Notes: a model not told the origin generated them from the letters alone. A DNA stretch of 64,000 nt from an uncultured Dehalococcoidia bacterium (GCA_958296245.1 OY282458.1:1850197-1914196), one strand, 5' to 3'. Shown: positions 3,142 to 51,036, numbered from the stretch's first letter. Made by a program: numbers and translations.

Positions 3142-4896
3142 GTGGCCTCAGAACAGTACTCCGACACCTGGCTCTCCGGGGAGCCGGTCTACCTTGCCGA
3201 CTTGGACAGATGCCTTCCCGCCGACGCGCTCTCCTCATTCCCGACCCGCGGACGCTGGAGGATGCTCGATTACGACACCGACGACTTCTCGGGCGTCATG
3301 CTGCTAGCAGGACCCGAGACGGCGGCGCCCGAGATCACGTACCCGCTGAACGTCACCGGATGGCACGCGGTTTCGGTTGGTGTTTTTCCGCACTACGAGG
3401 AAGGATCGGAGGTGCTGGTCCGCCTCAGTGGGGATGACACCTTCTCCATGCTGAGACGGGTCAACGAGGAGATGACCGTCCATGAGCTCACGATCCAGCA
3501 GATGTTCTGGCGGGTTGCGGACCTGACGGACCAAGACTTGGTCTTCGGCCAGATTGCCTACGAGCTCAGTTCCGGCGGAGGCATAGGCTCGGTCGAATCT
3601 CCCAGCGCGCAGGTCGCCTACGTAAAGCTCGTTCCTCTCACCGACACCGAGGTGCAGTCCTACCTGTCAGACCGGTCCACGAAGAGGAACAAACGCCTGT
3701 TCGCGCACAACGACGCCCACGGGGTCCACTTCAGCTACAAGCCGACGAACGCCGAGCACGTCCGGCGGCACGTCGAGGCGTACAGGGACACCGATTTCGG
3801 CAAGTTGTGCTGGGAGGCGGCCGGGGGCGACCTGCTTCAGTACTTGGGCAAGACAGGCAGGCACTCGACCTTCGACGGCCTGCAGGACTTCGGACCTCAG
3901 GGCTACCGCAAGCTGGCCGAGAGCTGGAGGACGTTCCGCGACGCGGGAGTGGACCCCTTCGAGGTGGCGTTGGAGCACACCCATGAGCTCGGGATGGAGT
4001 TCCACGCCGGGTACCGGATGACCGGCTTCTACTACCCGCCGCCCATCGACTACTTCAATCACGGCGCGTCGTTCTACAAGTACCATCCCGAGCTGCGGAG
4101 CATCGACAGAGACGGCGGCGCCGCTCCGCGCATGTCGTACGCCTTCCCAGCCGTTCGCGACTACGTGGTGTCCGTCTTCCGGGAGATCGCCCAGTATGAC
4201 GTAGACGGGATATCCCTGCTCTACAACAGGCGCCCGCCATACGTCGACTACGACCCCCCGATCGTCGAGGGCTTCAAGCAGGAGACCGGGCAGAACCCCC
4301 GGGAGATAGACGACGCCGACCCGGATTGGCTGTCCTACCGAGCCAGGACGATGACCCGGTTCATGCGAGAGGTCAGGGAGGCGATGGACGACGAGGCTAA
4401 GAGGCAGGGTAGGCGGAAGATCGAGATCTCTGCCGTAGTCATGGGCAGCGAGGAGGAGAACCTCTACAACGCTCTGGATCTGAAGGCATGGATCTCCCAG
4501 GGGCTGATCGACACCCTGGTCCCGTACACTTCGAGGCCGAGTCTCGACAGCATGTCGCGGTCGTGGACGGATCCCCGGGACGTCGAACACTTCGTTTCGC
4601 TTACCAAAGGCTCCGATTGCGAACTGGCCCTGAACGTCATGCCCCGCCAGCAGAGCGCCGAGGACTTCCGGCGCATGGCGGCGCTGGTGTACGGCGCCGG
4701 CGGCGAGCAGCTATTCTTCTGGGACGGCGACACGGGGCGGGCCAACTTCTCCACCGCATACGACTCGTTGAGGCGTCTGGGCCACAGGGAGGACGTGCTG
4801 GCCTGGAGCGGCGCCGGCGAACCCGGTCTGCCCGCGGTCGGCAAGGCGGTGCGCAAACTGGGCGACTGGGACATGACCTACCAGACGCCGGGGTAG
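3142..4896 (+). CDS. Family-10-like (GHL10/DUF187-type) glycosyl hydrolase-like protein, array member 1
   Basis: This 584-aa cytoplasmic protein has no signal peptide or membrane segment. Residues 15-168 look like a beta-sandwich (GWHAVSVGVF, VLVRLSGDDTF, VAYVKLVPL). Residues 185-560 look like a TIM barrel. The barrel carries FAHNDAHG (187-194), LGMEFHAGYR (283-292), a strand YDVDGISLLYNRRPP (352-366) and, near the end, QLFFWDGD. The YDVDG strand, followed by a WLSYRA...FMREVREAMDD helix and a GLIDTLVPYTS strand, resembles the GHL10 pattern. Family membership is inferred from that pattern only. Acidic residues in the E-F-H and D-V-D-G motifs are the natural catalytic candidates. It starts with GTG behind a strong AGGAGG (3128-3133) and is the promoter-proximal gene of five. 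The substrate is unknown. Confidence 0.6.
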   Translation: MASEQYSDTWLSGEPVYLADLDRCLPADALSSFPTRGRWRMLDYDTDDFSGVMLLAGPETAAPEITYPLNVTGWHAVSVGVFPHYEEGSEVLVRLSGDDTFSMLRRVNEEMTVHELTIQQMFWRVADLTDQDLVFGQIAYELSSGGGIGSVESPSAQVAYVKLVPLTDTEVQSYLSDRSTKRNKRLFAHNDAHGVHFSYKPTNAEHVRRHVEAYRDTDFGKLCWEAAGGDLLQYLGKTGRHSTFDGLQDFGPQGYRKLAESWRTFRDAGVDPFEVALEHTHELGMEFHAGYRMTGFYYPPPIDYFNHGASFYKYHPELRSIDRDGGAAPRMSYAFPAVRDYVVSVFREIAQYDVDGISLLYNRRPPYVDYDPPIVEGFKQETGQNPREIDDADPDWLSYRARTMTRFMREVREAMDDEAKRQGRRKIEISAVVMGSEEENLYNALDLKAWISQGLIDTLVPYTSRPSLDSMSRSWTDPRDVEHFVSLTKGSDCELALNVMPRQQSAEDFRRMAALVYGAGGEQLFFWDGDTGRANFSTAYDSLRRLGHREDVLAWSGAGEPGLPAVGKAVRKLGDWDMTYQTPG

Positions 4897-4903
4897 AACA
4901 GAC

Positions 4904-6694
4904 TTGGACTCGAGCGACATCCTGCGGGACAACACTTTCTCGGCTAGGCCCGTATACCTGAGCAGCCTCGATACGTGCCAGCCTGACGGCGCCCTGTCGC
5001 GCGGCGCGATGCCCGGGCGATGGCGTGCGATGGAGTACGAGGCCGAAGGGATCTCCGGCGTCATGCTGCTGGCGGGGCCCGAGACCGCCGCCCCGGAGAT
5101 CACGGTACCGATGAACGCCTCGGGGTGGCACGCCGTCTCCGTGGGCCTCTTCGCAGACCAGAGGCAGCCCACCAGCGTGCTTGTGAGGCTTACCGGCGAC
5201 GACACCTTCTCCGTGCTGGACCAGCCCCCCCTCGAGTCCGAGCAGCAGGCCGGCAAGGAGGAGACGCCAGCTTACAGAGCGCACCAGATCAGGGAGCTGT
5301 TCTGGCGTGTCGTCGACCTGACGCACAGGGACTTGGTGCTGGGCCAGATACAGTGGCGGGTTGCGCCGGGAGAAGGAGAAGGCGCGCTCAGATCGGTCGC
5401 CAGCCGCGTCGCCTACGTGAAGATCACCCCCCTGACCCCCGCCGAGGCGGCGGCGGCAAGGGCGGACGCCGCCCGAACCGACACGCGGCGCCTGTTCGCC
5501 CATAACGACGCCCACGGCCTTCACTACTCCCACCGCCCGACCACTGCGGAGGAGATACGGCGCGAGATCGAGTGCTTCAGGGGCTCCGATTTCTCCCGAA
5601 TCTACTGGGAGACCGGATCGGGGGACATGCTCAAGTACTTCAGCAGGCTGGGTAGGATGGGCACCTACGACGACCAGGGAGACTTTGGGCGCAGGGGCGA
5701 CCGGCTCCACGCCGAAAGCTGGAGGTCGCTCATCAGGGACCGCATAGACCCCTTCGAGGCCGCGCTGTCCCACGCGCATGACATCGGCTTGGAGCTCCAC
5801 GCGTCCTACCGCGTCGCCGGGTTCCACTACCCGCCGCCGCTGGACTACAACAGCTACGGAACGACCTTCTACAAGTTCGGCGCCAAGCTCAGGAGCGCCG
5901 ACAAGAGAGGCCGCCGCGCGCCCCGCCTGTCGTACGCCTATCCACAGGTACGGCGCTTCGTCATCTCGCTTCTCAAGGAGATGGCAGGGTACGACGTTGA
6001 CGGCGTCTGCCTGCTGTACAATCGGCGCCCCCCGGTCGTAGAGTACGACCCTCCCTTGGTGGAAAGCTTCCAGGCTAAGTACGGCTCCGACCCCCGGCAA
6101 CTCGACGACGAGGACCCCCGTTGGCTCTCCCACAAGGCTCAGGCGCTTACGCAATTCCATAGAGAGGTGCGCCAGGCGATGGACGACGTGGCCGAAGAGC
6201 GCAAGCTGAGCAAGCGCATACAGGTCTCTGCCGTCACGATGCGCGACGAGCGCGAGAACATGCTCTACGCCATGGACTTGAAGGCCTGGATCGATGAGGG
6301 TCTGGTGGACACGATCATCCCCTACACCTCGGAGCCGATGCTCAACAGCGCGAGTGAGTCTTGGGCTGACCCGTGCGCGGCGCGGTACTTCGTGGAGTTG
6401 ACCAAAGGGACCCCGTGCAAGCTTGCGTTGAACATCATGCCCCGCCGGATGACCGCCGACGAATACCGCAGCCGGATTGCGGCCCTCTACTCGGTGGGGG
6501 TGGAGAACTTCTTCTTCTGGGACTGCACGCCGGGCCGCGCCAATTTTACTTCCTCGTACGACGCCATGCGGCGGTTGGGTCACAGAGACGAGATAGAAGC
6601 TTGGAGCGCACAAGGACAGCCTACGCATGGGGCCGCCAGCGTAGAGATCAAGCAACTCGGCGGTTGGGACTTCAGGTACGCCACGCCGGGTTAG
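4904..6694 (+). CDS. GHL10-like glycosyl hydrolase-like protein, array member 2
   Basis: This 596-aa paralog keeps the full architecture of member 1: FAHNDAHG, LELHASYRVAGFHYPPP, YDVDGVCLLYNRRPP, IIPYTSEP, NFFFWD and the common C-terminus Y-x-T-P-G. It begins with TTG only 7 nt after the stop of member 1 and has no clear ribosome-binding site of its own. Translation is therefore probably coupled to the upstream gene. The stretch between the two N-terminal beta-sandwich halves (around residue 110) carries a short Glu/Gln-rich insertion compared with member 1. The beta-sandwich and barrel are otherwise collinear, without frameshifts, so the copy looks functional. Confidence 0.6.
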   Translation: MDSSDILRDNTFSARPVYLSSLDTCQPDGALSRGAMPGRWRAMEYEAEGISGVMLLAGPETAAPEITVPMNASGWHAVSVGLFADQRQPTSVLVRLTGDDTFSVLDQPPLESEQQAGKEETPAYRAHQIRELFWRVVDLTHRDLVLGQIQWRVAPGEGEGALRSVASRVAYVKITPLTPAEAAAARADAARTDTRRLFAHNDAHGLHYSHRPTTAEEIRREIECFRGSDFSRIYWETGSGDMLKYFSRLGRMGTYDDQGDFGRRGDRLHAESWRSLIRDRIDPFEAALSHAHDIGLELHASYRVAGFHYPPPLDYNSYGTTFYKFGAKLRSADKRGRRAPRLSYAYPQVRRFVISLLKEMAGYDVDGVCLLYNRRPPVVEYDPPLVESFQAKYGSDPRQLDDEDPRWLSHKAQALTQFHREVRQAMDDVAEERKLSKRIQVSAVTMRDERENMLYAMDLKAWIDEGLVDTIIPYTSEPMLNSASESWADPCAARYFVELTKGTPCKLALNIMPRRMTADEYRSRIAALYSVGVENFFFWDCTPGRANFTSSYDAMRRLGHRDEIEAWSAQGQPTHGAASVEIKQLGGWDFRYATPG

Positions 6695-6751
6695 CGGGGC
6701 CCTCAGGCCGCGGGAAGCTTGGGGGCTTGAATTTGCCCGCGCGGGCGTCCC

Positions 6752-6816
6752 CGAAGCCGGACTTGGGAAGCGCCGCTATGAGGGGCTGGCGCATGGGCGC
6801 CGCAGCCCCCGGATAA
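6752..6816 (+). pseudogene. Relic of the 3' end of another array copy
   Basis: The 144-bp gap between members 2 and 3 contains a degraded copy of a member-3-like gene end. The stretch from 6752 matches the member-3 codons for E-P-G-L-G-A-P, loses about 20 bp, then reads Gly-Trp-Arg-Met-Gly-Ala-Ala-Ala-Pro-Gly-stop. Member 3 itself ends Gly-Trp-His-Met-Gly-Ala-Ile-Ala-Pro-Gly-stop at 8576-8608. This suggests that a sixth paralog, most like member 3, once stood here and was deleted. Confidence 0.65.
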
Positions 6817-6847
6817 CCACGCAGACCGCGACAGGAGGTTGAGTCTC

Positions 6848-8608
6848 ATGACACAGAGCAGCTTTGAGGGGAGCGACTTCTTCGGTGACCGGGGCTTTGC
6901 CGCCGCGCCGGTCTACCTTACCGACTTGGAGCGGTGTACGCCGTCCGGGTCCATCGCCCGGGAGTCGGTGCGGGGAAGGTGGAGGGCCTATGACTACGAG
7001 ACCTCGGGTTTCAACGGCGTCCTGCTGATGGCGGGCCCCGAGACCGAGGCGCCGGACATAACCTACCCGCTCGACGTTAAGGGCTGGCACGCCGTGTCCC
7101 TGGGCATACATCCCACGGACAGCGGCCAAAGCGAACGGTCCCGCCTGCTGGTGAAGCTGAGCAGCGACGATACCCACGTTGAGGTGACGTGGGAGCCCGA
7201 CGGGCACCTCGCGCGGCAGAGGCTCGAGGAGGTGTTCTGGAAGACTGCCGATCTGTCCGGCCAGCAGATACACTTCAGGCAGTACCGGGAGAGCCGCGTT
7301 CCGGGAAGCGCCGGTCGTGCAGCCGAGTGCTCCGCGGCCCGGATCGCCTATATAAAGCTGGTGCCGCTCACCGGCGAAGAGGTCCGGCGCGCCGGCGGCG
7401 GCCCTTCGGACCGGCGGCTCTTCGCACACTCGGACACCGACTGGGCCATGAGCAAGGGTACCGTCAAGGGCATCAAGACCGTCTTGGAACCCTACCGCGA
7501 CACCGACTTTTCGCGCATGTACTGGGAGATGGGCAGCGGCGACCTGCTCCACTACCCGACCGAGGTCGCCCGAACGGTGGCCGAACTGGGCGTGACCGAC
7601 TACGCGCGGGCCTTCGACCGGCAGCGGGACGAGGGATCGAAACGGTTTTGGGATGATGGAGTGGACCCATTCCAGGCGGCGTTGGACCACACGCACGAGA
7701 TGGGCATGGAGTTCCACGGGGCGTACCGGCTTGCAGGCTGGACGTACCCGCCCCCCCTGCTGGACTACATGTGGGAGGGCGGCTTCTACGAGAGCCACCC
7801 CCAGTGGCGATGCGTGGACCGTGAGGGGAGGACCGTGCCCCGCATGTCGTACGCGTACAGGGAGGTACAGGACTTCGCCCTCTCGGTGCTGCGCGAGGTC
7901 GCGGTGAAGTACGACGTGGAGGGAGTATGCCTGCTGTACAACCGCAGACCCCCATACGTGGACCATGAAGAGCCGGTGCTGGAGGGGTTCAGGAAGGAAT
8001 ACGGAAAAGACCCACGCGACCTGGACGAGCAGGACGGCCGTTGGCTGCGGTACAAGGCCGGGGTCGTAACGGAGTTCATGCGCCGCGTGCGGAGCGAGAT
8101 GGAGGCGGCGGGCCGCGAGCGTGGAAAGCGCGTAGACATAGGCGCGTGCGTGCTGGGGAAGGAAGAGGACAATATGTACTTCGCGTTGGACGTGAGGGGA
8201 TGGGTGAGGGAAGGTCTGATCGACACGTTGATTCCGTACAGCCCCGCACCGTTGGCAATGCCGGTGGAGACGGACACGTGGGCGACTGCGGAGCAGATAG
8301 CGCCGTTCGTGGAGGCCGTCGAGGGCACTCCGGTTGTGATGGCGGCGAACATCATGCCCAGGCAGATGAGCCCTGAGAAGTTCCGGCGGAACGCGTCGAT
8401 GCTGTACGGGGCGGGTGTGGACCAGCTGTTCTTCTGGGATTGCGAGGGCCGATCCAACTACAAGCCGATGTGGAACGCGCTGAGACGGCTGGGGCACAGG
8501 GAGGAGATCGAGGCCTGGAAGGCATCCGGTGAGCCGGGCTTGGGAGCGCCGCTGACACCGCTCCGCACGCTGGAAGGCTGGCACATGGGCGCAATCGCCC
8601 CCGGATAG
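6848..8608 (+). CDS. GHL10-like glycosyl hydrolase-like protein, array member 3 (most divergent)
   Basis: The start was chosen at ATG 6848 because AGGAGG occupies 6833-6838, right against the alternative TTG at 6839 and 9 nt before the ATG. This gives 586 aa. It is the most divergent array member. The FAHNDAHG motif is replaced by FAHSDTDWAMSKG, LLDYM replaces the usual DY/N segment after YPPP, and the C-terminus ends AIAPG rather than TPG. It keeps MEFHGAYRLAGWTYPPP, YDVEGVCLLYNRRPP (the middle Asp of D-V-D-G is now Glu) and QLFFWDCE. These changes hit the putative active-site face, so its substrate probably differs from that of its neighbours. The next paralog follows after 20 bp. Confidence 0.6.
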   Translation: MTQSSFEGSDFFGDRGFAAAPVYLTDLERCTPSGSIARESVRGRWRAYDYETSGFNGVLLMAGPETEAPDITYPLDVKGWHAVSLGIHPTDSGQSERSRLLVKLSSDDTHVEVTWEPDGHLARQRLEEVFWKTADLSGQQIHFRQYRESRVPGSAGRAAECSAARIAYIKLVPLTGEEVRRAGGGPSDRRLFAHSDTDWAMSKGTVKGIKTVLEPYRDTDFSRMYWEMGSGDLLHYPTEVARTVAELGVTDYARAFDRQRDEGSKRFWDDGVDPFQAALDHTHEMGMEFHGAYRLAGWTYPPPLLDYMWEGGFYESHPQWRCVDREGRTVPRMSYAYREVQDFALSVLREVAVKYDVEGVCLLYNRRPPYVDHEEPVLEGFRKEYGKDPRDLDEQDGRWLRYKAGVVTEFMRRVRSEMEAAGRERGKRVDIGACVLGKEEDNMYFALDVRGWVREGLIDTLIPYSPAPLAMPVETDTWATAEQIAPFVEAVEGTPVVMAANIMPRQMSPEKFRRNASMLYGAGVDQLFFWDCEGRSNYKPMWNALRRLGHREEIEAWKASGEPGLGAPLTPLRTLEGWHMGAIAPG

Positions 8609-8628
8609 CCCGGCATGAGGAGGCTCAG

Positions 8629-10431
8629 GTGGCCGGAGATTACATAGACGACCGCGCCTTCGAATCGGGACCGGTCTACTTCACCGACTTGGACAACTGC
8701 GAGCCCTCGTCCGCAGTGTCGCCGTATCCGGGGCTCGGCAGATGGCGCAAGCTGAGCTACGAGGCCGAGGGGATCTCGGGCACGATGCTGTTGGCGGGGC
8801 CCGAGACCGCCGCGGCGCCCGTGACCTACCGGCTCCCGGTGTCGGGCTGGCACGCAATATCCGTAGGGTCCTACGGCGGCGTAGTCTGGGCCGGCGAAGG
8901 CTCCCGGGGCGTCCACCTGAGAACGAGGACCCTCGTACTGGCCCGGCTGACGGGCGAGCGGACCTTCAGCCCGTTGTCGCTGCCCGAAGAGTGGCTCCGT
9001 CAGGGCGAGGAGGAGGGCGAGGTCCTGCGGGACATGTATTGGAAGGTCGCCGACCTTACCGGGCAGGACATCGTCCTTGGGCAGCTTGGCTGGCGGGCGG
9101 CGCCCGGCGATGGCCCGGGCAGCTTTGCGTCCGTTGCCGCCAGGGTGGCGTACGTCAAGGTCGTGCCGCTCTCCGACTCCGAGGTCGAGGCGGTAGAGTC
9201 AGACCGCCGGCGAACGGACACGAAGAGGATATTCGTTCACAACGACGTATTCTCCTTCTTCTACGGATGCCGCCCCACGACCGAGGGCGACGTCAGGAGG
9301 CACCTGGAGCCGAACCGCGACAGCGACGTCTCCCGCGTCTACTGGGAGATGGGCGGCGGCGACCTCCCCAAGTACCCCTCCAAGATCGGGCGCGCCGCGC
9401 CCTTCGATGGCCTGAACGACTTCTCCAGGGTGGGCGACCGGCTTCAGGCAGAGGCTAGGAGGGTGCTGAGGGACAAGGGCATAGACGCGGCGCGGGTGGC
9501 GATCGATCACACTCACGATATGGGCCTGGAGCTCCACGCCTGTTACCGCGTGGCCGGATTCCACTACCCGCCGCCTATCGACAACGTCAACCACGGCGCC
9601 AGCTTCTACAAGCAGCACCCGGAGTGGCGCGGCACTGACAGGGGAGGCAATACGACGCCCAGGCTTGCGTACTCCTATCCCGGAGTCCGCCGATACGTTC
9701 TCGCCATGCTTCGCGAGATGCTGGAATACGGCGTGGACGGCCTCTGCCTGCTGTACAACCGGCGTCCGCCGCTGGTCGAGTACGAGCCGCCCGTGGTGGA
9801 CGGCTTCATACGAGAGTACGGCAAGGACCCGCGCCACCTCGACGACGCCGATCCGGTGTGGCTGAAGTACAGGGCGCGGGTGCTCACGCAGTTTATGCGC
9901 GAGGTGCGCCGGCTCGTGGACGACGCCGCGGCGGAGCAGGGCAAGGACGTCGCCCTTTCGGCGGTCGTGCTCGACACCGAGGCCTCCAACATGTACAACG
10001 GCTTGGACTTGAAGGCGTGGATCGACGAGGGGCTGGTGGATACCCTGATACCGTACACTTCCGAGCCGAATCTGAACAGCACAGTGACCGGGTGGGCCGA
10101 TCCGGCGAGCGCCGAGTACTTCGTATCGCTGACCAAGGGAACGAAATGCGAGCTCGCCTTGAACCTAATGCCCAGGAACCTGACGGCGGAGCAGTACCGG
10201 ACCCTGGCTGCTTCCCTGTACGAGGTCGGCGTGGATAATTTCTTCTTCTGGGACGCCGACATGCTGCAGGCGCGGTTCAGCAGCGAAGGTTCGTGGAACG
10301 CGCTGAGGCGGCTGGGCCACAGGGATGAAATCGAAGCATGGGCCGCCGAAGGTAAGCCCAGCCTGGCTACCTCGGCGTTGAAGCTGAAGAGCATCGGCGA
10401 CTGGGACGTCTCCTACGACACGCCCGGCTGA
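8629..10431 (+). CDS. GHL10-like glycosyl hydrolase-like protein, array member 4
   Basis: This 600-aa paralog starts with GTG preceded by GAGGAGG (8617-8623). It carries FVHNDVFSFFYG in place of FAHNDAHG, then LELHACYRVAGFHYPPP, YGVDGLCLLYNRRPP, LIPYTSEPNLNS and NFFFWDADM, ending YDTPG. The first Asp of the Y-D-V-D-G strand is Gly here, but the second Asp is retained. The N-terminal beta-sandwich has an insertion of about 10 residues rich in Arg and Gly (around residue 85-95). It has no signal peptide. The gap to member 5 is 37 bp. Confidence 0.6.
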   Translation: MAGDYIDDRAFESGPVYFTDLDNCEPSSAVSPYPGLGRWRKLSYEAEGISGTMLLAGPETAAAPVTYRLPVSGWHAISVGSYGGVVWAGEGSRGVHLRTRTLVLARLTGERTFSPLSLPEEWLRQGEEEGEVLRDMYWKVADLTGQDIVLGQLGWRAAPGDGPGSFASVAARVAYVKVVPLSDSEVEAVESDRRRTDTKRIFVHNDVFSFFYGCRPTTEGDVRRHLEPNRDSDVSRVYWEMGGGDLPKYPSKIGRAAPFDGLNDFSRVGDRLQAEARRVLRDKGIDAARVAIDHTHDMGLELHACYRVAGFHYPPPIDNVNHGASFYKQHPEWRGTDRGGNTTPRLAYSYPGVRRYVLAMLREMLEYGVDGLCLLYNRRPPLVEYEPPVVDGFIREYGKDPRHLDDADPVWLKYRARVLTQFMREVRRLVDDAAAEQGKDVALSAVVLDTEASNMYNGLDLKAWIDEGLVDTLIPYTSEPNLNSTVTGWADPASAEYFVSLTKGTKCELALNLMPRNLTAEQYRTLAASLYEVGVDNFFFWDADMLQARFSSEGSWNALRRLGHRDEIEAWAAEGKPSLATSALKLKSIGDWDVSYDTPG

Positions 10432-10468
10432 TTCGCCAACCTGCACATACCAATCAGGAGGACATTGA

Positions 10469-12265
10469 ATGACTGTTGCCGACCGTATCGCCGACCGTGG
10501 GCTCTCCGGCGAGCCCATCTACAAGACCGACATGGACAGCTGCATCCCGGCTGACGCGATCTCGGAGACCCCCAAGCACAGGCGGTGGAGGAGGATGGGC
10601 TACGTTGCCGAGAACGGCCTGTCCGGCGTCATGCTGCTGGCCGGTCCCGAGACGGCTGCCCCAGACGTTACGTATCCGCTGAGGGCCTCCGGCTGGCACG
10701 CGGTGTCGATCGGCGTCTACGGAGCGCGGCGGCATCAGGTCGGGATCATGGTGAGGCTCACCAGCGACGACACGTTCCACATCCTATCCCTGCCGGAAGT
10801 GGCGGCGCCCGTGAGCAGCCCAAGCGGCAAGATGAGGGAAGTACACGATCCCGGCATTCACGAGCTCTACTGGCGCGCGGCGGATCTGACGAACGAAGAC
10901 CTGGTGATAGGACAAGAGCAGTGGCGCGGCGCGCCCGGCGACGGCCCTGGATCCTACGCCTCCCAGGAGAGCAGGATAGCCTACGTCAAGCTGGTCCCCC
11001 TCTCGGACTCCGAGGCCGCCGAAGTAGTGGCCGACAGGAATAGGGCCGATACGAAGCGGCTCTTCGTGCATAACGACTCCCACGGTGTCCACGTCCAGCC
11101 CCGCCCGACCACCGCCGAGGAGATACGCAGGCACGTCGAGCCGTACCGCGACAGCGACATCTCCAGGGTGTATTGGGAGTCCGGCATGGGAGACCTGCTG
11201 CACTACTTCACCAAGATCGGCAGAATCCCATCCTACTACGGGCTGGATGACTACGTTGGGATCCACTACCGGTGGGGCGCTGAGAGCTGGCGCTCGCTCC
11301 AAGAGCAGGGCATCGACCCCTTCAAGGTGGCCTTGGAACACGCGCACCGGCTGGGTATCGAGTTTCACGCGAGCTACCGCGTGGCCGGGTTCCACTTCCC
11401 ACCCCATCACGACCACTTCGACTACGGCTCCACCTTCTACGACCACCACCCGGAGTGGCGCGCCACGGACCGAGGCGGCAATATAACCCCCAGGCTCTCA
11501 TACGCCTATGAGGGGGTGCGCAACTTCGTGATCAAGCTGCTGCGCGAGATGGCCGGGTACGACATAGACGGCGTATGCCTGCTCTACAACCGGCGCCCGC
11601 CTCTGGTGGAGTACGACGAACCCTTGGTGGAGGACTTCAGGCGGGAGCACGGCGAGGACCCGCGCAGACTGGCTGACGACGACCCCCGCTGGCTCTCGTA
11701 CCGGGCACGCATCCTGACCCACTTCCACCGTCAAGTACGTGACGCAATGAACGACGAGGCGCGAAAGCAGGGCCGCAGGCCCATCGAGATAACCGCCGTC
11801 GTCATGAGCACGGAGCAGGAAAACCTCTACAACGCCATGGACCTGAAAGCGTGGGTGGACGAGGGCCTCGTGGACACGCTCATTCCCTATACGTCGGTGC
11901 CCAACCTGGACAGTATGCGCCACTCATGGACCGACCCGCGCGCCGCCGAATACTTCGTTTCGCTGACGAAGGGCACGGCGTGCCAGCTTGCGGTCAACCT
12001 GATGCCCCGCCACCTGAGCTCGGAGGAGTACAGGCAACGCGCGGCGGCCCTCTACGGCGTGGGGGTCGAGCGCTTCTTCTTCTGGGACTCGGACGTCCAC
12101 CAAGCCCGGTCCCACAACGCCAACAACTGGAACGGCCTGATGCGCTTGGGACACCGCGACGAGATAGAGTCCTGGGTGCGAGCAGGGCAACCGGACCTGA
12201 ACATGCCCTGGACCCCGCTGTCCGTGCTGGGCGACTGGGACCTAGCCTACGAGACCCCGGGCTAA
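10469..12265 (+). CDS. GHL10-like glycosyl hydrolase-like protein, array member 5
   Basis: This 598-aa protein starts with ATG and has its own AGGAGG at 10456-10461. It retains FVHNDSHGVH, IEFHASYRVAGFHFPP (with HHDHFDYG after it instead of the usual P-P/I-D-Y), YDIDGVCLLYNRRPP, LIPYTSVPNLDS and RFFFWDSDV, ending YETPG. The extra histidines after the F-P-P motif could add a metal or substrate contact; this is speculative. Its 3' third is the source of the degenerate copies that fill the next 600 bp, showing that the array end is prone to duplication. Confidence 0.6.
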   Translation: MTVADRIADRGLSGEPIYKTDMDSCIPADAISETPKHRRWRRMGYVAENGLSGVMLLAGPETAAPDVTYPLRASGWHAVSIGVYGARRHQVGIMVRLTSDDTFHILSLPEVAAPVSSPSGKMREVHDPGIHELYWRAADLTNEDLVIGQEQWRGAPGDGPGSYASQESRIAYVKLVPLSDSEAAEVVADRNRADTKRLFVHNDSHGVHVQPRPTTAEEIRRHVEPYRDSDISRVYWESGMGDLLHYFTKIGRIPSYYGLDDYVGIHYRWGAESWRSLQEQGIDPFKVALEHAHRLGIEFHASYRVAGFHFPPHHDHFDYGSTFYDHHPEWRATDRGGNITPRLSYAYEGVRNFVIKLLREMAGYDIDGVCLLYNRRPPLVEYDEPLVEDFRREHGEDPRRLADDDPRWLSYRARILTHFHRQVRDAMNDEARKQGRRPIEITAVVMSTEQENLYNAMDLKAWVDEGLVDTLIPYTSVPNLDSMRHSWTDPRAAEYFVSLTKGTACQLAVNLMPRHLSSEEYRQRAAALYGVGVERFFFWDSDVHQARSHNANNWNGLMRLGHRDEIESWVRAGQPDLNMPWTPLSVLGDWDLAYETPG

Positions 12266-12860
12266 CCTCGAGCGCCTACAGGCCTGCAACCGCGCCCTGA
12301 CCTAGCCTACGAGACCCCAGGCTAGGAGCGAATCCCCAACGGCTGGTAGGCGACGAGGCGCGGGGGGCAGAGGCGACTCCCCTTTACCCTTGCGCTCAAC
12401 TTGATGCCCGCCACCTGAGCTCGGAGGAGTACAGGCAACGCGCGGCGACCCTCTACGGCGTGGGGGTCGAGCGCTTCTTCTCTGGGACTCGGACGTCCAC
12501 CAAGCCCGGTCCCACAACGCCAACAACTGGAACGGCCTGATGCGCCTGGGACACCGCGACGAGATAGAGTCCTGGGTGCGAGCAGGGCAACCGGATTCTG
12601 AACATGCCCTGGACCCCGCTGTCCGTGCTGGGCGACTGGGACCTAGCCTACGAGACCCCGGGCTAACCCACAGCGCCTACAGGCCTGCAACCGCGCCCTG
12701 GACCTAGGCCTACGAGACCCCGGGCTAACCCACAGCGCCTACAGGCCTGCAAACGCGCCCTGGACCTAGCCTACGAGACCCCGGGCTAACCCTAGGGGCG
12801 AATCCCCAACGGCTGGTAGGCGACGAGGCGCGGGGGACGAAGGCGACTCCCCTTTACCGC
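12239..12860 (+). repeat. Nested direct repeats derived from the end of array member 5
   Basis: Two units recur. Unit A is about 60 bp: the last codons of member 5 (DLAYETPG-stop) plus the following 30 bp. It appears at 12239-12299, in short form at 12300-12324, then at about 12639-12701, 12702-12762 and 12763-12793. Unit B is about 60 bp, beginning GCGAATCCCCAACGGCTGG, and appears at 12328-12388 and 12797-12858. The A-B junction is similar in both places, so the block arose by stepwise local duplication. Nothing else is seen in 12266-12960. Confidence 0.8.
12389..12666 (+). pseudogene. Truncated, frameshifted copy of the 3' end of array member 5
   Basis: This stretch matches member 5 from about 11990 to its stop almost base for base but carries single-base indels. 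One C is missing in the codons for M-P-R, one T is missing in the F-F-F-W run, and a T is added in the Pro-Asp-Leu segment. It has no start and no 5' portion. Few substitutions are present, so the duplication is recent. Confidence 0.85.
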
Positions 12861-13015: not shown

Positions 13016-15034
13016 CTATGGGCCTTGAATCGCGATCTGCTTGGCGAGCGGCCCGGTCTCGTTGAGAGGATGGACGCCGCCAAACGCGACGATGTCGGTC
13101 TGATGGATCAGGTAGTTCCAAGAGTCGTCTTGGCCGTGGAACTCAGGAGTGAACCGGACGTCCTTGAGCTGGTTGGGCTGAGGACGCCGGCCGAACCCGG
13201 GTATCCAGACGTGCGCGCCGTAGGTGAAGAGCCGCAGCGGCGAGGAGATGACGACGATCGGCAGGTCCTCGATGAAGAACTCGTTCATCTTGATGCCGAT
13301 GTCCACCAACTCCTCGTTCGTCAGCGCCCGGGGCACTGCGTCCAAGAGGGCGTCCAACTCGGGGCTGGCGTAGCCCATCGCGTTGGTGTTCTTGCTGTGG
13401 AAGTAGTAGTCCTGGGCGTCAATCGCGCCTGCCCAGCCGCCCACGCGAACCGAGTCGTAGTTGTAGTTCTCGTAGTAGACGGCAGCCCATACCGGGGTCT
13501 CCATCGTCTCGAAGTTGACCTTCAACCCGGCGTCAGCAAGCATCTGCTGCTCGGCGGCGAACTGGACCAGAGCTTGGCCGGTGTAGCCGGGGGCCTTCTC
13601 GGTGATCTCACGGTCGAAGTCCCAGCCAGCCTCTTCCAGAAGCTGCCGCGCCGTGGCCGTGTCGCCCTCGTGGGTGTAGCGGGCCATCATCTCGGGGGTC
13701 TCGACGCCCGTGGGGACGAAGAGGTTGGTGTTGTGGATGTAACCCAACCCGCCCTCGAACGTGTCAACAAGCTGCTTGCGGTTCAGCGCCCACATGTGCG
13801 CCTGGTGGATGCGCGAGTCGCGGATCCACTCGGTGCGGAAGTTGAACGAGTAGCCGCCGCCGTTGTTGCGCCGGCCGGTGGCCGCGACCAAGAACCGCGC
13901 GTCCGCAAGGAAGGCCTCGTTGACCTCCGGCGGGAAGCCGCCGCGCCTGCTGGTGTCGATCTCGCCCTTCTGCATGGCAATCTGAGCGGTGTCAGGAGAC
14001 GAGATCAGATGGACGAACACCCTGTCGATCTTCGGCTTGCCGAAGTGGTAGTCATCGTTGGCCACGAGCTCGTGGAACTGGTCGGGCTCGTGCTTGACGA
14101 ACTTCCAAGGGCCTGTGCCGATGGGGGTGCTGCCGCTCAGACCGATGAAGAAGTCATGGTCGTCCAAGTCCTCAACCGGAATGCTGCTGAGGATGTGCTC
14201 AGGCATGAGGTACAGCCCCAAGCCCGAAGTGGTGCCCCCCGACTGCGCGACGAACTGGCTGCTGGGGAACGCCATCTCTACGGTTAGGGTATGGTCGTCG
14301 ACCACCGTTATGCCGGACACCGAGTCGGCAGTGCCCTCGGCGAAGGCGTCTGAGCCCTTGACCATAGCGAACTTCCCGACGTGCCTGCTCTTGGTACGGG
14401 GGTCCATGTAGAGGTTGAACGTGAACGCCAAGTCCTCCGCAGTTACCGCCTCGCCATCGTGCCAGACCGCGTTCTTCCTCATGTAGAACGTGACTGCGCT
14501 GCCGTCGGGGGCCATGTCCCAGCGCTCCACGATGTCAGGGATGTAGCGCTGCTCGTGGGGGTCTACCTGCCAGAGCCTGGACATGATCATGTTGTTGATC
14601 AGCCCAACGTAACCGCTGACCCCCGTGAACGGGGACAGCTTCGAGACGGCGCTGGAGACGCGATGGTTGATGAGCTTCGTCGCCCCCTCCGCGCTCACCT
14701 CGACCTCGACGATCTTCTCTACGGTCTTCACGACCTCTTTCTCGACGATGACCGGCTTCTCAATCTCCCTCACCACCTCTTTCTCGACCACCACCTCGAC
14801 CGGCTTCTCAACCTCTCTCACCACCTCTTTCTCGACCACCACCTCGACCGGCACCTCTTTCACCACCTGCTTCTCGACCACCACCTCGACCGGCACCTCT
14901 TTGACCACCGTCTCAGTGACGATCTCGGTCACCGGCACCTCTTTGACCACCTCCCGTGTACACGCGAAGGCGGCAACCAATGCGACCACTGCCGTGACCG
15001 CCAACAATATCCGAGACTTCCTAACCATCAGCAT
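13016..15034 (-). CDS. ABC transporter family-5 (peptide/nickel-type) substrate-binding lipoprotein
   Basis: This extracytoplasmic receptor delivers peptides or other small solutes to an ABC permease. The start at 15034 gives 672 aa and has AGGAGG four bases upstream (ATG 15028 is an alternative). A signal peptide ends in the lipobox VAAFAC, with the lipidated Cys at residue 25. Residues 26-115 are a striking repeat of V-V-K-E-V-P-V-E-V-V-V-E-K-type units, a spacer typical of Chloroflexota binding proteins. The remainder is a full SBP_bac_5 domain with ...WDMAPDGSAVTFYMRKNAVWHDGEAVTAEDLAFTF..., split here as WHDGEAVTAEDL near residue 200. No permease or ATPase genes are adjacent, so it either works with a distant transporter or is an orphan receptor. 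It converges on the hydrolase array. Confidence 0.92.
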   Translation of the reverse strand: MLMVRKSRILLAVTAVVALVAAFACTREVVKEVPVTEIVTETVVKEVPVEVVVEKQVVKEVPVEVVVEKEVVREVEKPVEVVVEKEVVREIEKPVIVEKEVVKTVEKIVEVEVSAEGATKLINHRVSSAVSKLSPFTGVSGYVGLINNMIMSRLWQVDPHEQRYIPDIVERWDMAPDGSAVTFYMRKNAVWHDGEAVTAEDLAFTFNLYMDPRTKSRHVGKFAMVKGSDAFAEGTADSVSGITVVDDHTLTVEMAFPSSQFVAQSGGTTSGLGLYLMPEHILSSIPVEDLDDHDFFIGLSGSTPIGTGPWKFVKHEPDQFHELVANDDYHFGKPKIDRVFVHLISSPDTAQIAMQKGEIDTSRRGGFPPEVNEAFLADARFLVAATGRRNNGGGYSFNFRTEWIRDSRIHQAHMWALNRKQLVDTFEGGLGYIHNTNLFVPTGVETPEMMARYTHEGDTATARQLLEEAGWDFDREITEKAPGYTGQALVQFAAEQQMLADAGLKVNFETMETPVWAAVYYENYNYDSVRVGGWAGAIDAQDYYFHSKNTNAMGYASPELDALLDAVPRALTNEELVDIGIKMNEFFIEDLPIVVISSPLRLFTYGAHVWIPGFGRRPQPNQLKDVRFTPEFHGQDDSWNYLIHQTDIVAFGGVHPLNETGPLAKQIAIQGP

Positions 15035-15155
15035 GTCCCTCCTGATTTGTCCCATCCCGTTCTCTTGTAAACCGACACGTCATTCTCCTAAGGACGCGGG
15101 CATTAAACCACAAGGTGAAGGCGCGTGTCAACGCAATATCCTCATAGAACCTGGC

Positions 15156-19950: not shown

Positions 19951-19984
19951 TGGGCGGGTGAGCCTGCCTGAAAGACCCCTACGA

Positions 19985-20018
19985 GATGAGGGGCGGGGCC
20001 GAGTCCCCGCCCCTCATC
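19985..20018 (+). terminator. Hairpin terminator after the vWA-like gene
   Basis: A perfect 14-bp stem GATGAGGGGCGGGG pairs with its complement around the loop CCGAGT, 34 nt after the stop. There is no clear T-tract, so termination could be partial. Confidence 0.6.
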
Positions 20019-20071
20019 CATTCCAAGGGACGCGCCGCGACCAACCCCGAGGGAGGGGCAATGCTGCTGCG

Positions 20072-21307
20072 ATGACAGAGCGAAAAAAGGTCGCCGCAAT
20101 CGTAACGACCTATTTCCCCCACTCCCACGCCGACTTGATCGTGTCCAAGTTCGTCGAGGGCTTCCCCACCGGAGGCGGCCTCATCGAACCCTCGGTGGAC
20201 CTCGTGTCGATGTACGTCGACCAGCCCCACCCCGACGACGTGGGAATGGAGGTCGCCCGGAAGCACGGCGTCGACGTCTACCCCAGCATACGCAGCGCCC
20301 TCACGCTGACGCCCCCCAGCGCCGGCCACTGGCCCACGGCCTCGGACTGGAAGGTAGGCGAGCTGGCCGTAGATGGGGTGCTCATCATCGGCGAGCACGG
20401 CGACTACTCCGGCAACGAACGCGGGCGTCAGATGTACCCTCGGAGGCACTTCTTCGAGCAGGTCTGCGGCATATTCGCAACGTCAGGCCGAGCCGCGCCG
20501 GTGTTCAACGACAAGCACCTTGCCCACAGCTGGGCCGACTGCGTCTGGATGTACGAACGGGCCGCTGAGTTGGGCGCGCCCTTCATGGCGGGCTCCGCCC
20601 TGCCGGTCGCCGACCGCGCCCCCGAGCTCGATCACGAAGTCGGGGCGCCTATCGAGGAAGCCCTATCTCTGGGCTACTTCCATCCTTACGTCAACGGGCT
20701 CGACTCCTACGGCTTCCACGGTCTGGAAGCCCTGCAATGCATGGTTGAGCGGCGGCGCGGCGGCGAGACCGGAATCAGGGCCGTGCAGTGCATCGAGGGC
20801 GGCGCGGTCTGGGCGGCGGGTCGGGATGGTCTATGGCCCCGTGACCTCGCGGATGCCGCCGAGGCCCAAATCCGGCAGAGGGACCCGGGGCGCATGGAGG
20901 ACAACTGCGCGAACCCCGCAGTCTTCCTGCTGGAGTATCTCGACGGGCTGCGCGCCGCCGCCCTCATGCTGGACGGACACCTGAAGGGCTTCGGCTACGC
21001 CGCCAGGGTGGACGGAGAGACGCACGGCGCCGGGTTCAACGCGACAGGCTCTCGACACATGCCGTTCAGCTATCTCGGCCTCAACATACAGGAGATGTTC
21101 CTCACCGGCCGACCTCAATACCCCGTGGAGAGAACGCTCCTGGTCAGCGGCGCACTCGACGCGCTCATGGAATCCCGCTACCGGGGCCACGTCCGAATCG
21201 AGACGCCTCACCTGCGGGTGGCTTACAGCCCGCCGGAAAGGCCGCCGGCGCGGCCATGCAGCCCACAGCGCGCCGGGCCCGAGTTGACGGCAGCAAGCAT
21301 GAACTGA
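20072..21307 (+). CDS. Conserved protein of unknown function (Gfo/Idh-like length, Planctomycete/Chloroflexota type)
   Basis: This is a 411-aa cytoplasmic protein. It starts MTERKKVAAIVTTYFPHSHADLI and contains VSMYVDQPHPDD, VDGVLIIGEHGDY, QMYPRRHFFEQV and AAPVFNDKHLAHSW. I recall a family with this pattern in Planctomycetes and allied environmental genomes, annotated only as hypothetical. The N-terminal strand lacks a Gly-x-Gly-x-x-Gly dinucleotide site. Conserved His, Asp and Glu residues (HSHAD, EHGDY, NDKH, CNA/NPAVFLLEYLDG) suggest an enzyme. The start overlaps by ATGA the stop of a four-codon leader (ATG 20061, M-L-L-R) that itself sits behind GGGAGGGG. The function is unassigned. Confidence 0.75.
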   Translation: MTERKKVAAIVTTYFPHSHADLIVSKFVEGFPTGGGLIEPSVDLVSMYVDQPHPDDVGMEVARKHGVDVYPSIRSALTLTPPSAGHWPTASDWKVGELAVDGVLIIGEHGDYSGNERGRQMYPRRHFFEQVCGIFATSGRAAPVFNDKHLAHSWADCVWMYERAAELGAPFMAGSALPVADRAPELDHEVGAPIEEALSLGYFHPYVNGLDSYGFHGLEALQCMVERRRGGETGIRAVQCIEGGAVWAAGRDGLWPRDLADAAEAQIRQRDPGRMEDNCANPAVFLLEYLDGLRAAALMLDGHLKGFGYAARVDGETHGAGFNATGSRHMPFSYLGLNIQEMFLTGRPQYPVERTLLVSGALDALMESRYRGHVRIETPHLRVAYSPPERPPARPCSPQRAGPELTAASMN

Positions 21308-23293: not shown

Positions 23294-24529
23294 CTACCCT
23301 ACGATGTCTCTGAAAACCCGCAGGTAGTTCAACCCCAAGAGCTTCCGCAGCTCCTGTTCGCTGTAACCTCGTTCGGCCAGCTTCAGGGTAATGTTGGGCC
23401 AGTCGGTAAACTGATCGAATCCGTCGATCCTGTGGTCCTGGCTCAGCCTGTGTTCGGGCCGGAAGCCCGACCAGTTGAACCCCTGGGGCACGCTCCTAGG
23501 ATCCGGGGCGTCATTGTAGAGGTGGGATTGTTCGAATGGACCCAACTCGGCGGGGAATAGGACGTTGGACTCTGTGCCCGGCCCCGGGCCGCACTTGTCG
23601 CAGCCTATCCCCACGTGGTCGATGCCCATCACGTCGACGAGGTGGTCCACGTGGTCGGCAAAGTGGTCCAGCGTCACCTCTGTGGTCTCCGAGAGGAACC
23701 CCCCGATCGCTGCGACGCCGAAATATCCGCCCTGGTCGGCGATGGCCCTAGCCAGCTCGTCCCCCTTGCCGCGGTCGTGGTAGCAGACGGCGTTGCTGGC
23801 CGAGTGTGTGACGATGACCGGCGACGACGACGCCTCGATGGCATCCCAACCCACCTGCTCGCTGCAGTGGCTCACGTCCACCGCCATCCCCAACTCGTTG
23901 AGCCGTTCGACGACCTCCAGGCCGAAATAGGTCAGTCCCGTCTTATAGCGCTCGGTGCAGCCGTCCCCCACCAGGTTCCGCAGGTTGTAGGTGAGCTGTA
24001 CGACGCGGAGTCCCAGGTTCCTGAACAGCTCTATCCTGTCCAAGTCGCTGCCGAACGGTGTCGTGTCCTGGAAATCGAATATGACGCCTCGCTTGCCGTC
24101 CTCATGGACGCGCTCGACGTCGTCAGCCGTGAGGACCAGGCGCACCTCGTCTTGGAGAGCGTCGATCATGGCGCGAGCCTGGGTCATCATCTTGAGGGAG
24201 GTCTCGAACGCAATGTTGGGGGGGATCGGCCCGGCATAGGTGGCGCTGGCGACGTCCACTCCCGAACTCTCCCAGACTGCCATGTACTCGCGCCGGGCGT
24301 CGGCGGACGCCTGGACCTCCTCGACGGCCATGTCCCTGAGACGCTGCGCGATCTCACCCCTGGACAGCTTGCCCTCTCTCGCGTACTCGTCCAGGGCAGC
24401 CTTCATGTTGTCGTTGAACAGCATCCCGCTGGTGGCGCCGGGCTGCTGGCTATCGACCACCAACGCCTCTTCGTGGAGGCGGCGGGCCTCGTCCGGGGTC
24501 AGGGTCGGTCTCCTCCGCGTCATCGCCAT
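23294..24529 (-). CDS. Membrane dipeptidase (M19/renal dipeptidase)-family hydrolase, altered metal site
   Basis: M19 enzymes are binuclear-zinc TIM barrels that cleave dipeptides or related amides. This 411-aa member shows VVQLTYNLRNLVGDGCTE, MAVDVSHCSEQ, PVIVTHSASNAVCYHDR and HVGIGCDKCGP, giving the two His ligands, the substrate Arg and the late Asp. The canonical first-metal D-G-H-x-D near the N-terminus is replaced by VVDSQQP, and the bridging Glu of the IEGG motif aligns with Gln in FDFQDTTP. I recall a subfamily sharing this QQP pattern. It probably holds at most one metal or has another chemistry. It follows the DapA-like gene by 48 nt on the same strand. Confidence 0.85.
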   Translation of the reverse strand: MAMTRRRPTLTPDEARRLHEEALVVDSQQPGATSGMLFNDNMKAALDEYAREGKLSRGEIAQRLRDMAVEEVQASADARREYMAVWESSGVDVASATYAGPIPPNIAFETSLKMMTQARAMIDALQDEVRLVLTADDVERVHEDGKRGVIFDFQDTTPFGSDLDRIELFRNLGLRVVQLTYNLRNLVGDGCTERYKTGLTYFGLEVVERLNELGMAVDVSHCSEQVGWDAIEASSSPVIVTHSASNAVCYHDRGKGDELARAIADQGGYFGVAAIGGFLSETTEVTLDHFADHVDHLVDVMGIDHVGIGCDKCGPGPGTESNVLFPAELGPFEQSHLYNDAPDPRSVPQGFNWSGFRPEHRLSQDHRIDGFDQFTDWPNITLKLAERGYSEQELRKLLGLNYLRVFRDIVG

Positions 24530-24577: not shown

Positions 24578-25504
24578 TTACGGCACGGGCCACCCGGCGC
24601 TGCGCAGCGCCGCCTTGAGCTCCGCCATCTCATCACTGTTCATAGCCCCGGACGGCGGCCTGGACGCCCCGCACGGCCGGCCCATCGCGGCCATCATCCC
24701 CTTCTTCACCACACCCTGCCCGCCTGTCCGCTCGCCGACCTTCCGGAATATCTCGTCCAGTGGACCATTCGCCGAGTCCAGCAGCTCTTGCGCCTCCTCC
24801 CACCGTTCGGCCTCCAGCAGGTCCAGCACCTTGAGGTCGTGCGGAGGGTGAATGTCCACGGTGTGGTTGATATAACCGTGGCCGCCGAGCTTGTAGCACC
24901 TTACCGCGTTGCCTCCATTGTCGATGATGTTGAACCTGTCCTTTAACTCGAAGATGTCCTCGTAGTCTCCTACGACAGGATTCCACTTGACTCCGACCAC
25001 GCGCTCGAAGTCGGTCATGCGGCGGTAGGTCTCCATGTAGATGGGGCAGTTCATCCCACGGGTGACGTAAACGAGAATCCCGATGTCTATGGCGTCCGAA
25101 AGGTCGCCGTAGTAGGCGAGGATGTCGTCCTGCGTGGGAAGGTTGAAGATCGGCGGGCTTACCTGGAGCCCATGCGCCCCGAGGTCCTGGGCCCGCTTGG
25201 CGTCCTCGATAGTGCGCTTGGTGTCCTTGTAGTGCAGCCCGCACACGATGGCCGCCTTGCCGTGGGCCGCCTGGACCACGGTGCGGAGCAGCATGGGCCA
25301 CTCGTCGTCCTTCAGCATCGGCCCTTCGCCCATTGCGGCGGCGACTTTGATGACCGACCTGCCCTTGACCAACCCGCTCTCGACCCACCACTCGGTCAGC
25401 TCGGCCATCAGCCCGTAGTCCACCTCGAAGTCGTCGTCGAACGGCGTCGGCACCGTGGCGATCGGCCCGACGAGTAGCCCTCTATTCTCTTCACGATCCA
25501 TCAT
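24578..25504 (-). CDS. DapA/NAL-family aldolase
   Basis: Members of this family are class I aldolases or lyases acting on pyruvate or related oxo acids. The 308-aa barrel has ATVPTPFDDDFEVD at the N-terminus, the Tyr of ILVYVTRG and the Schiff-base Lys in VGVKWNPVVGDY. The usual G-T-T-G-E loop is replaced by VAAAMGEGPML, so it is not a standard dihydrodipicolinate synthase. Its setting between an M19-like hydrolase and a P-loop protein points to catabolism. The C-terminal ERTGGQGVVKKGMMAAMGRPCG matches the specificity tail seen in catabolic DapA-like enzymes. Confidence 0.88.
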   Translation of the reverse strand: MMDREENRGLLVGPIATVPTPFDDDFEVDYGLMAELTEWWVESGLVKGRSVIKVAAAMGEGPMLKDDEWPMLLRTVVQAAHGKAAIVCGLHYKDTKRTIEDAKRAQDLGAHGLQVSPPIFNLPTQDDILAYYGDLSDAIDIGILVYVTRGMNCPIYMETYRRMTDFERVVGVKWNPVVGDYEDIFELKDRFNIIDNGGNAVRCYKLGGHGYINHTVDIHPPHDLKVLDLLEAERWEEAQELLDSANGPLDEIFRKVGERTGGQGVVKKGMMAAMGRPCGASRPPSGAMNSDEMAELKAALRSAGWPVP

Positions 25505-50136: not shown

Positions 50137-51036
50137 ATGACCAGATTCGGCGTGGACGCAATCAAGGGAATCGTGCCGCCAATCGCCACCCCGATCACCA
50201 AGGACGAAGCGGTGGACGTGCAAGCGATGCGGCGGCTGGTGGACTTCCTGCTCGACCAGGGGGCGAACGCCATCTTCGTGATGGGCGGGACAGGTGAGTT
50301 CTTCTGCTTCCCGGATCGCGAAAAGCGGCGCGCGATAGAAACCGTAGTGGACCAGGTGGCCGGACGCGCGCCGGTGATCGCCGGCGTCACGGACCTGAGC
50401 ACGCGCCGGACGGTCGCCAACGCCCACGCGGCGCAGGAGGCCGGAGCCGACTTCATCACGTCGCTGCCGCCGTTCTTCTTCAGCCTACAGCAAGATTGGA
50501 TCCACCGGTTCTACACGGCTGTCGCCGCCGAAACCGATCTGCCGCTGCTGATGTACAACATCCTCAACCCGATACACACCAACATCCAGCCCCAAACGGT
50601 CAGAAGCTTGAGTGAGAACCCCAAGATCGTCGGGATCAAGGACTCCGAGGAGTACGCTCACGTACAGGAGGTTGTGTTCCTGACCGACAACGACGACTTC
50701 AGAGTCCTCACCGGTCTGGAGCAGAACTACTATGCGTCGCTGAACGCCGGCGCCGCCGGAGGCGTTCTGTCGGCGGCCAATTTCTGCCCGGCGCTGTGCA
50801 GGAGCATCTACGACCACACCGTAGCCGGCCAACGCGACAAGGCAATCGAGCTACAGGCCAAGCTCAACCGCATGTTGGGCGAGCTTCAGGGGTTCAGCTC
50901 TTGGTGGGGTGTGGTCAAGATGTGCCTCAACATTCTGGGGATATGCGATAGCGCGGTGACGCACCCGATGCCCGCCTGCACGAACGAGGAGCGGCCGCGG
51001 CTCGCCAGGATAATGAAGGATTACGGCCTACTCTAG
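50137..51036 (+). CDS. DapA/NAL-family aldolase (second copy)
   Basis: This is a 299-aa class I aldolase-type barrel. It has GIVPPIATPITKDEAVD, the loop VMGGTGEFFCF (family G-T-T-G-E as G-G-T-G-E), Tyr in LLMYNILNP and the Schiff-base Lys in IVGIKDSEEY. It is closer to standard DapA/N-acetylneuraminate lyase than the copy at 24578. No lysine-pathway genes surround it, so a catabolic oxo-acid aldolase or dehydratase is more likely than dihydrodipicolinate synthase. The start ATG has GGAAAGGAG upstream, in the 16-bp gap after the acyltransferase. Confidence 0.9.
   Translation: MTRFGVDAIKGIVPPIATPITKDEAVDVQAMRRLVDFLLDQGANAIFVMGGTGEFFCFPDREKRRAIETVVDQVAGRAPVIAGVTDLSTRRTVANAHAAQEAGADFITSLPPFFFSLQQDWIHRFYTAVAAETDLPLLMYNILNPIHTNIQPQTVRSLSENPKIVGIKDSEEYAHVQEVVFLTDNDDFRVLTGLEQNYYASLNAGAAGGVLSAANFCPALCRSIYDHTVAGQRDKAIELQAKLNRMLGELQGFSSWWGVVKMCLNILGICDSAVTHPMPACTNEERPRLARIMKDYGLL

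Follow-up and report, generated by a model that had tools for sequence, protein, structure and literature searches.

The closest described structural relative of the proteins considered here is EnvSia156, an inverting sialidase of glycoside hydrolase family 156 (GH156; PDB 6rzd, 6s00 and 6s04; PMC6254351, PMC6811678), in which Asp14 serves as base and His134 as acid, and the carboxylate of the sialic acid is bound by Arg129, Arg202 and Asn346 (PMC6811678). Related barrels are found in Cwp19 (PDB 5oq2) and the C-terminal domain of PgaB (4p7l), both exported enzymes with other active-site residues, and in the Pfam family GHL10 (PF02638; YddW/UPF0748-type proteins and Cwp19). Sialidase enrichment in sponge symbionts has been described for the beta-propeller family GH33, in Anaerolineae/Caldilineae rather than in Dehalococcoidia/SAR202 (PMC8163846, PMC6306507). 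Large, old paralog families of a different kind (enolases, FMNOs and ring-hydroxylating dioxygenases) are known from SAR202 (PMC6946804), in a paper whose main text has none of the terms GHL10, COG1649 or glycosyl hydrolase; our literature search found no paper that deals with GH156 or GHL10 from Chloroflexota or sponge symbionts. Here we describe a 64,000-nucleotide stretch (hereafter the window; positions 1850197-1914196) of the genome of an uncultured Dehalococcoidia bacterium, a single contig of 2,685,284 bp (GCA_958296245.1 OY282458.1). The window carries five tandem genes of a GH156-like clade within Pfam GHL10, a clade that has undergone a lineage-specific expansion to 18 copies in this genome.

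Five tandem genes in an old expansion

The array consists of the following genes, where position 297 is the residue aligned with the GH156 acid:

3142..4896, plus strand: member 1, 584 amino acids; PF02638 60 bits; position 297 Tyr
4904..6694, plus strand: member 2, 596 amino acids, listed start TTG; PF02638 33.2 bits; position 297 His
6839..8608, plus strand: member 3, 589 amino acids, the most divergent of the five; PF02638 48 bits; position 297 Thr
8629..10431, plus strand: member 4, 600 amino acids; PF02638 48.6 bits; position 297 His
10469..12265, plus strand: member 5, 598 amino acids; PF02638 41.2 bits; position 297 His

The preliminary description of this DNA had reported five consecutive paralogs of 584-600 residues with open frames, and this was borne out: the reading frames are intact, the proteins share 42-57% pairwise identity and align end to end, and all five pass the PF02638 gathering threshold of 27.9 bits, far beyond chance, with matches spanning about profile positions 49-266 of 311. 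Given this degree of divergence, assembly collapse or false duplication of the five is unlikely. A search of NCBIfam assigned the five members to no family and gave one weak PgaB match far under its cutoff. The intergenic gaps are, in order, 7, 144, 20 and 37 nt, and a Shine-Dalgarno-like GGAGG/GAGG lies just 5' of members 1, 3, 4 and 5. In the array region a scan for sigma-70 consensus promoters found none, and a combined promoter and terminator scan returned no more than in shuffled sequences; the 144-nt gap ahead of member 3 could accommodate a promoter, and the single promoter first proposed for the whole array is putative. Rfam matches were to tRNA only. None of the five has a signal-peptide-like N-terminus, in agreement with the preliminary description, and the proteins are therefore predicted to be cytoplasmic.

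At fourfold sites in residues that are identical among the five, codons match at 0.32-0.44, compared with 0.38 expected at saturation. Since synonymous sites are saturated, the copies must be old, and dN/dS among them is not a meaningful measure. A maximum-likelihood tree built from 95 family proteins did not recover the five as a clade. Member 1 pairs with a copy at 65.6 kb of the genome (support 99), the copies at 1357 kb and 1811 kb join member 3 (support 99), and members 4 and 5 pair with each other (support 92). A recent tandem duplication of the whole array was rejected, as members 1 and 3 have sister copies elsewhere. Together, saturation and the absence of a clade indicate that the array is old and did not arise by simple, recent local duplication. 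The idea of duplication followed by divergence thus holds, as an ancient process; nothing speaks for the hetero-oligomer that had been suggested alongside it.

The five genes are real as a tandem set, but they are not the whole set: the genome has 18 full-length paralogs. Besides the array there are two sets of three, at 1643-1648 kb and 1729-1736 kb, and seven copies that stand alone. The ~590-residue type accounts for 14 of the 18; the other four are of a shorter type and group with the gene that opens the Caldilineaceae operon described below. The family is otherwise rare, being present in 3 of 197 genomes of this order and 23 of 400 in the phylum. Another genus (g134) has 11 copies per genome, several in tandem pairs, and a further Chloroflexota genome has two copies plus a partial one in a row, so side-by-side copies are a habit of the family. 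The run of five was seen only in this genome. Relatives in public genomes include Baikal, ALOHA and other water-column metagenome-assembled genomes, and the isolate names of many (RHO, COS, APA) read as the sponge metagenomes of PMC8163846, judging by its species list; these hosts would probably share a kind of habitat with the GH33-bearing symbionts, along with the sialic-acid theme.

GHL10-like proteins of other subfamilies are also encoded near some family copies. Two neighbouring genes for proteins of about 388 residues (L030:4554-5717 and 5815-6981) lie beside Opp-type substrate-binding protein (SBP) and permease genes, with a full-length family copy following 3.8 kb downstream, and a 545-residue GHL10 protein of a different subfamily (L034:8557-10191) is encoded about 100 bp downstream of another.

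Predicted fold

An AlphaFold model of member 1, built from 41 sequences (mean pLDDT 91.3, pTM 0.92), has an N-terminal beta-sandwich resembling carbohydrate-binding modules (CBMs) and a (beta/alpha)8 barrel formed by residues 183-560 of 584. The N-terminal ~175 residues modelled alone gave a pLDDT of 92.4 and resembled CBM35/CBM36/CBM6-type sandwiches (Z 9-11); as Eph receptor, Cry and other sandwiches tied with these, we describe the domain only as CBM-like. For the barrel, EnvSia156 ranked first by profile search (E 6e-21), by Foldseek (E 1.5e-18) and by VIA structural alignment (Z 32.1 over 339 residues, 3.0 Å), at 20-22% identity, followed by Cwp19 (Z 29.3) and PgaB (Z 23.9). The PF02638 scores, the model and the structural alignment therefore uphold the predicted GHL10-like barrel with an N-terminal beta-sandwich. 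The assignment to GHL10 itself needs refinement: the Pfam cutoff is passed, but the closest structural relative is GH156 and not a generic GHL10 protein. The family has the EnvSia156-type barrel and lacks the eight-stranded C-terminal beta-sandwich of GH156; its sandwich is N-terminal and the barrel continues to about residue 560, which argues against membership of GH156.

Active-site residues

A HMMER alignment of EnvSia156 with the family equated Arg129 with R292, His134 with position 297, Arg202 with R363 and Asn346 with D528. Asp14 falls on D191 if the structurally aligned range (model residue 183 on chain residue 6) is ungapped, and also by way of a GH156-type homolog in the same genome. 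Among the 95 family proteins R292 and R363 are each conserved in all, and D191, D528 and H288 in 94 each; in the model these five residues lie at or near the C-terminal ends of barrel strands. The strand-1-end Asp that serves as base in GH156 and its two carboxylate-binding arginines therefore all have counterparts in the family. R292 also separates these proteins from ordinary Chloroflexota GHL10 proteins, which where alignable have Asn or another residue at this position, and from Cwp19, which aligns an Asn. The residue at position 297 is variable, being His in 37 of the 95, Gln in 16 and Phe in 15, followed by others.

Member 3 had been thought to have lost an H-N-D-A-H motif. It reads H-S-D-T-D, with the invariant Asp kept: it carries S190, T297 and E355 and retains D191, R292, R363 and D528. 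The D355 to E change in its D-V-D-G motif is indeed rare (2/95), but the Y-G-V-D-G of member 4 differs at a column that varies freely among P, D and G. Similarly, the proposal that the differences between paralogs fall at active-site motifs is correct for positions 192-193 and 297-298, while the motifs, taken as blocks, vary less than an average column does across the 18 paralogs (0.6-1.3 compared with 1.51 bits).

The GH156-type homolog (L023:1483-3093, about 1789.06-1790.67 kb of the genome) matches EnvSia156 with a phmmer E of 2.2e-25, has both arginines and the Asn, and is without a Pfam or NCBIfam match. We do not assign the five array members themselves to GH156: as a set they depart from it at the acid and the Asn and lack its C-terminal sandwich, though their mode of action may still be GH156-like.

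Gene neighbourhoods and decayed copies

The following features surround or interrupt the array:

1597-2838: FabF-like gene, by sequence appearance, flanking the array
6770..6816, plus strand: possible C-terminal remnant of a further member-3-like gene, found by eye in the gap between members 2 and 3
12407..12667, plus strand: frameshifted recent duplicate of the final ~260 bp of member 5 (97-99% identity, spacing 400-401; tblastn E 1e-19)
12660..12792, plus strand: very 3' end of member 5, repeated twice more in units of ~61 nt (repeat family D2)
13016..15055, minus strand: lipoprotein-like SBP of an Opp-type ABC transporter (SBP_bac_5; PF00496 E 1.4e-62), convergent with the array

The remnant between members 2 and 3 reads PDLGSAAMRGWRMGAAAPG, for comparison with EGWHMGAIAPG at the C-terminus of member 3, and is too short for a significant tblastn match. 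A 67-nt element at 12322-12388 and again at 12792-12858 (94%) flanks the decayed 3' copy of member 5, which suggests that adjacent DNA was copied along with the fragment or that the partial duplication happened more than once; the 97-99% identical copy itself could be an assembly artefact. Tandem runs, remnants and recent partial duplications amount to ongoing birth and death of copies.

The view that no carbohydrate-operon neighbours help to explain the array was right for its immediate surroundings in the window, but relatives lie in operon-like clusters with Opp-type, DHDPS/NAL and BNR genes. In Caldilineaceae the order is family gene, OppB, DHDPS, SBP, OppC, family gene. DHDPS-family genes are found within one or two genes of family members in Caldilineaceae, two other Chloroflexi clades and Acidobacteria, and directly upstream of them in the latter two Chloroflexi clades and Acidobacteria; they make up 29 of 299 neighbours at a distance of one to two genes compared with 6 of ~460 at a distance of at least four, although the loci are related and so do not count as independent. 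The main DHDPS partners fall into a single supported clade (99/92), to which an unlinked ortholog in the present genome, at 2.229 Mb and 57% identical to the Caldilineaceae partner, also belongs. BNR_2 genes lie directly upstream of family genes in Poribacteria, Acidobacteria and a Chloroflexi genome from Lake Baikal. A metagenome-assembled Lake Baikal Chloroflexi genome (L069) carries a candidate degradation cluster in which three members of the family are interspersed with six BNR sialidase-fold genes, a GH127-like gene and a PhyH gene.

The genome described here has 25 BNR_2, 21 DHDPS-family (by Pfam search) and 14 SBP_bac_5 genes. With 21 copies chance nearness is plausible, so DHDPS adjacency within this genome alone is weak evidence. 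The SBP at 13016..15055 is 36% identical to that of the Caldilineaceae operon, and its link to the array is only suggestive; a further Opp-type SBP-permease set, at 1838.99-1845.30 kb of the genome, precedes member 1 by ~8 kb. The BNR_2 (sialidase-fold) genes include runs at 75-82 kb and 1117-1120 kb, and occur in a lineage for which little GH33 enrichment has been reported. Two DHDPS-family genes in the window, at 24581-25504 (minus strand) and 50137-51033 (plus strand), belong to a large paralog expansion of their own in this small genome; the former adjoins a Peptidase_M19 gene at 23297-24529. The window also encodes, at 19958-21304 on the plus strand, a 449-residue protein without a Pfam or NCBIfam match.

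Possible function and rival explanations

Family assignment, copy number, predicted fold, residue conservation and neighbourhoods are computed results; hydrolysis, a carboxylated substrate and a cytoplasmic location are inferred, the last from the lack of signal peptides. Our favoured reading, which is tentative and which we put at a little short of an even chance, is that the array encodes GH156-like exo-glycosidases with a diversified substrate range, acting in the cytoplasm on imported glycosides that bear a carboxylate and are probably of the ulosonic-acid type. In such a scheme an Opp-type ABC transporter would import acidic oligosaccharides or glycopeptides, and a non-reducing sugar with a carboxylate, most probably a 2-keto-3-deoxy ulosonic (sialic-type) acid, would be cleaved off. 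Hydrolysis would follow a GH156-like single displacement, with D191 as the putative general base, R292 and R363 holding the substrate carboxylate, and the general acid provided by His297 where present and by another residue in other members. The released acid might then be processed by a DHDPS/NAL-superfamily enzyme, as suggested by the neighbourhoods of relatives and the unlinked ortholog here, and the paralogs may differ in leaving group or sugar tolerance. A fuller version, in which the proteins would make up an uncharacterised cytoplasmic glycoside hydrolase family, sister to GH156, for imported ulosonic-acid-type glycosides, with an 18-copy radiation whose substrate range is split through the acid and aglycone positions and which works with a Tyr-less DHDPS/NAL-superfamily enzyme, is conceivable but doubtful.

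Several observations weigh against the favoured reading. The GH156 acid is not conserved, with His in a minority of the family and Tyr and Thr in members 1 and 3. The carboxylate triad is incomplete: both arginines are invariant, but Asn346 is replaced by Asp (D528) in 94 of 95. An Asp facing a carboxylate would be unusual, so that the substrate may not be a 2-keto acid, and R363 is also present in several ordinary Chloroflexota GHL10 proteins. The array has no adjoining DHDPS gene, the nearest being 12 kb away and of another subfamily, and the main partner clade keeps the Schiff-base Lys but is without the catalytic Tyr of the superfamily. The partner proteins also score far below the NanA and DapA cutoffs (33.1 compared with 382 bits for TIGR00683), and with the Tyr lost they are not to be taken for NanA or DapA. 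With Asp in place of Asn and a variable residue at the acid position, the substrate could be something other than a sialic acid, and our confidence has been held down for this reason.

The same two features would suit cytoplasmic glycosidases acting on other acidic sugars, such as uronic acid or sulfated or carboxylated sponge or algal oligosaccharides, with D191 and D528 as an inverting acid/base pair in place of the GH156 Asp/His dyad. The N-domain is compatible with this, since its CBM35/CBM6/CBM36 matches include a CBM35 with anhydro-galacturonic acid (2w47). As GH156 is the best fold match of all, and keto-acid or sialic-type sugars are what the nearby DHDPS-family and BNR sialidase-fold genes suggest, we regard this alternative as unlikely, albeit the strongest of the rivals. 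The variation at position 297, which many copies fill with Tyr, Thr, Arg, Lys, Gln or Met, and the decayed copies around the array would also be expected if some or most copies were non-catalytic sugar-binding or regulatory pseudo-enzymes and only those with His297 were enzymes; that the putative base and both arginines are kept in nearly all 95 proteins, members 1 and 3 included, is not what loss of catalysis would predict, and makes this distinctly improbable.

The ongoing birth and death of copies could be taken to mean that the genes are redundant and kept for dosage of one function. Their divergence, saturated synonymous sites and intact frames, however, indicate long separate maintenance, and sister copies lie at distant loci, so we consider dosage very unlikely. 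The least probable of the explanations is that the family acts like Cwp19 or PgaB, in cell-wall recycling for instance, with fragments of peptidoglycan or poly-N-acetylglucosamine as substrates. Cwp19 and PgaB are the second and third structural neighbours, though all are related barrels; the absence of a signal peptide, the absence of R292 in Cwp19 and the aligned ordinary GHL10 proteins, and 18 copies with a patchy distribution all fit poorly with a housekeeping recycling role. Overall, the original observation of the array is confirmed and its interpretation partly supported.

If the reading as GH156-like exo-glycosidases is correct, the family would represent sialidase-like enzymes that work inside the cell and belong neither to GH156 nor to the beta-propeller families. 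The named relatives of its hosts come, judging by their isolate names, mostly from sponge metagenomes, a setting for which use of sialic acid has been proposed. The 18 diverged natural variants around one invariant Asp/Arg/Arg core would then form a test set for relocation of the general acid in a His/Asp-type inverting glycosidase, and a carbohydrate-active family would be added to the paralog expansions of SAR202-type Chloroflexota.

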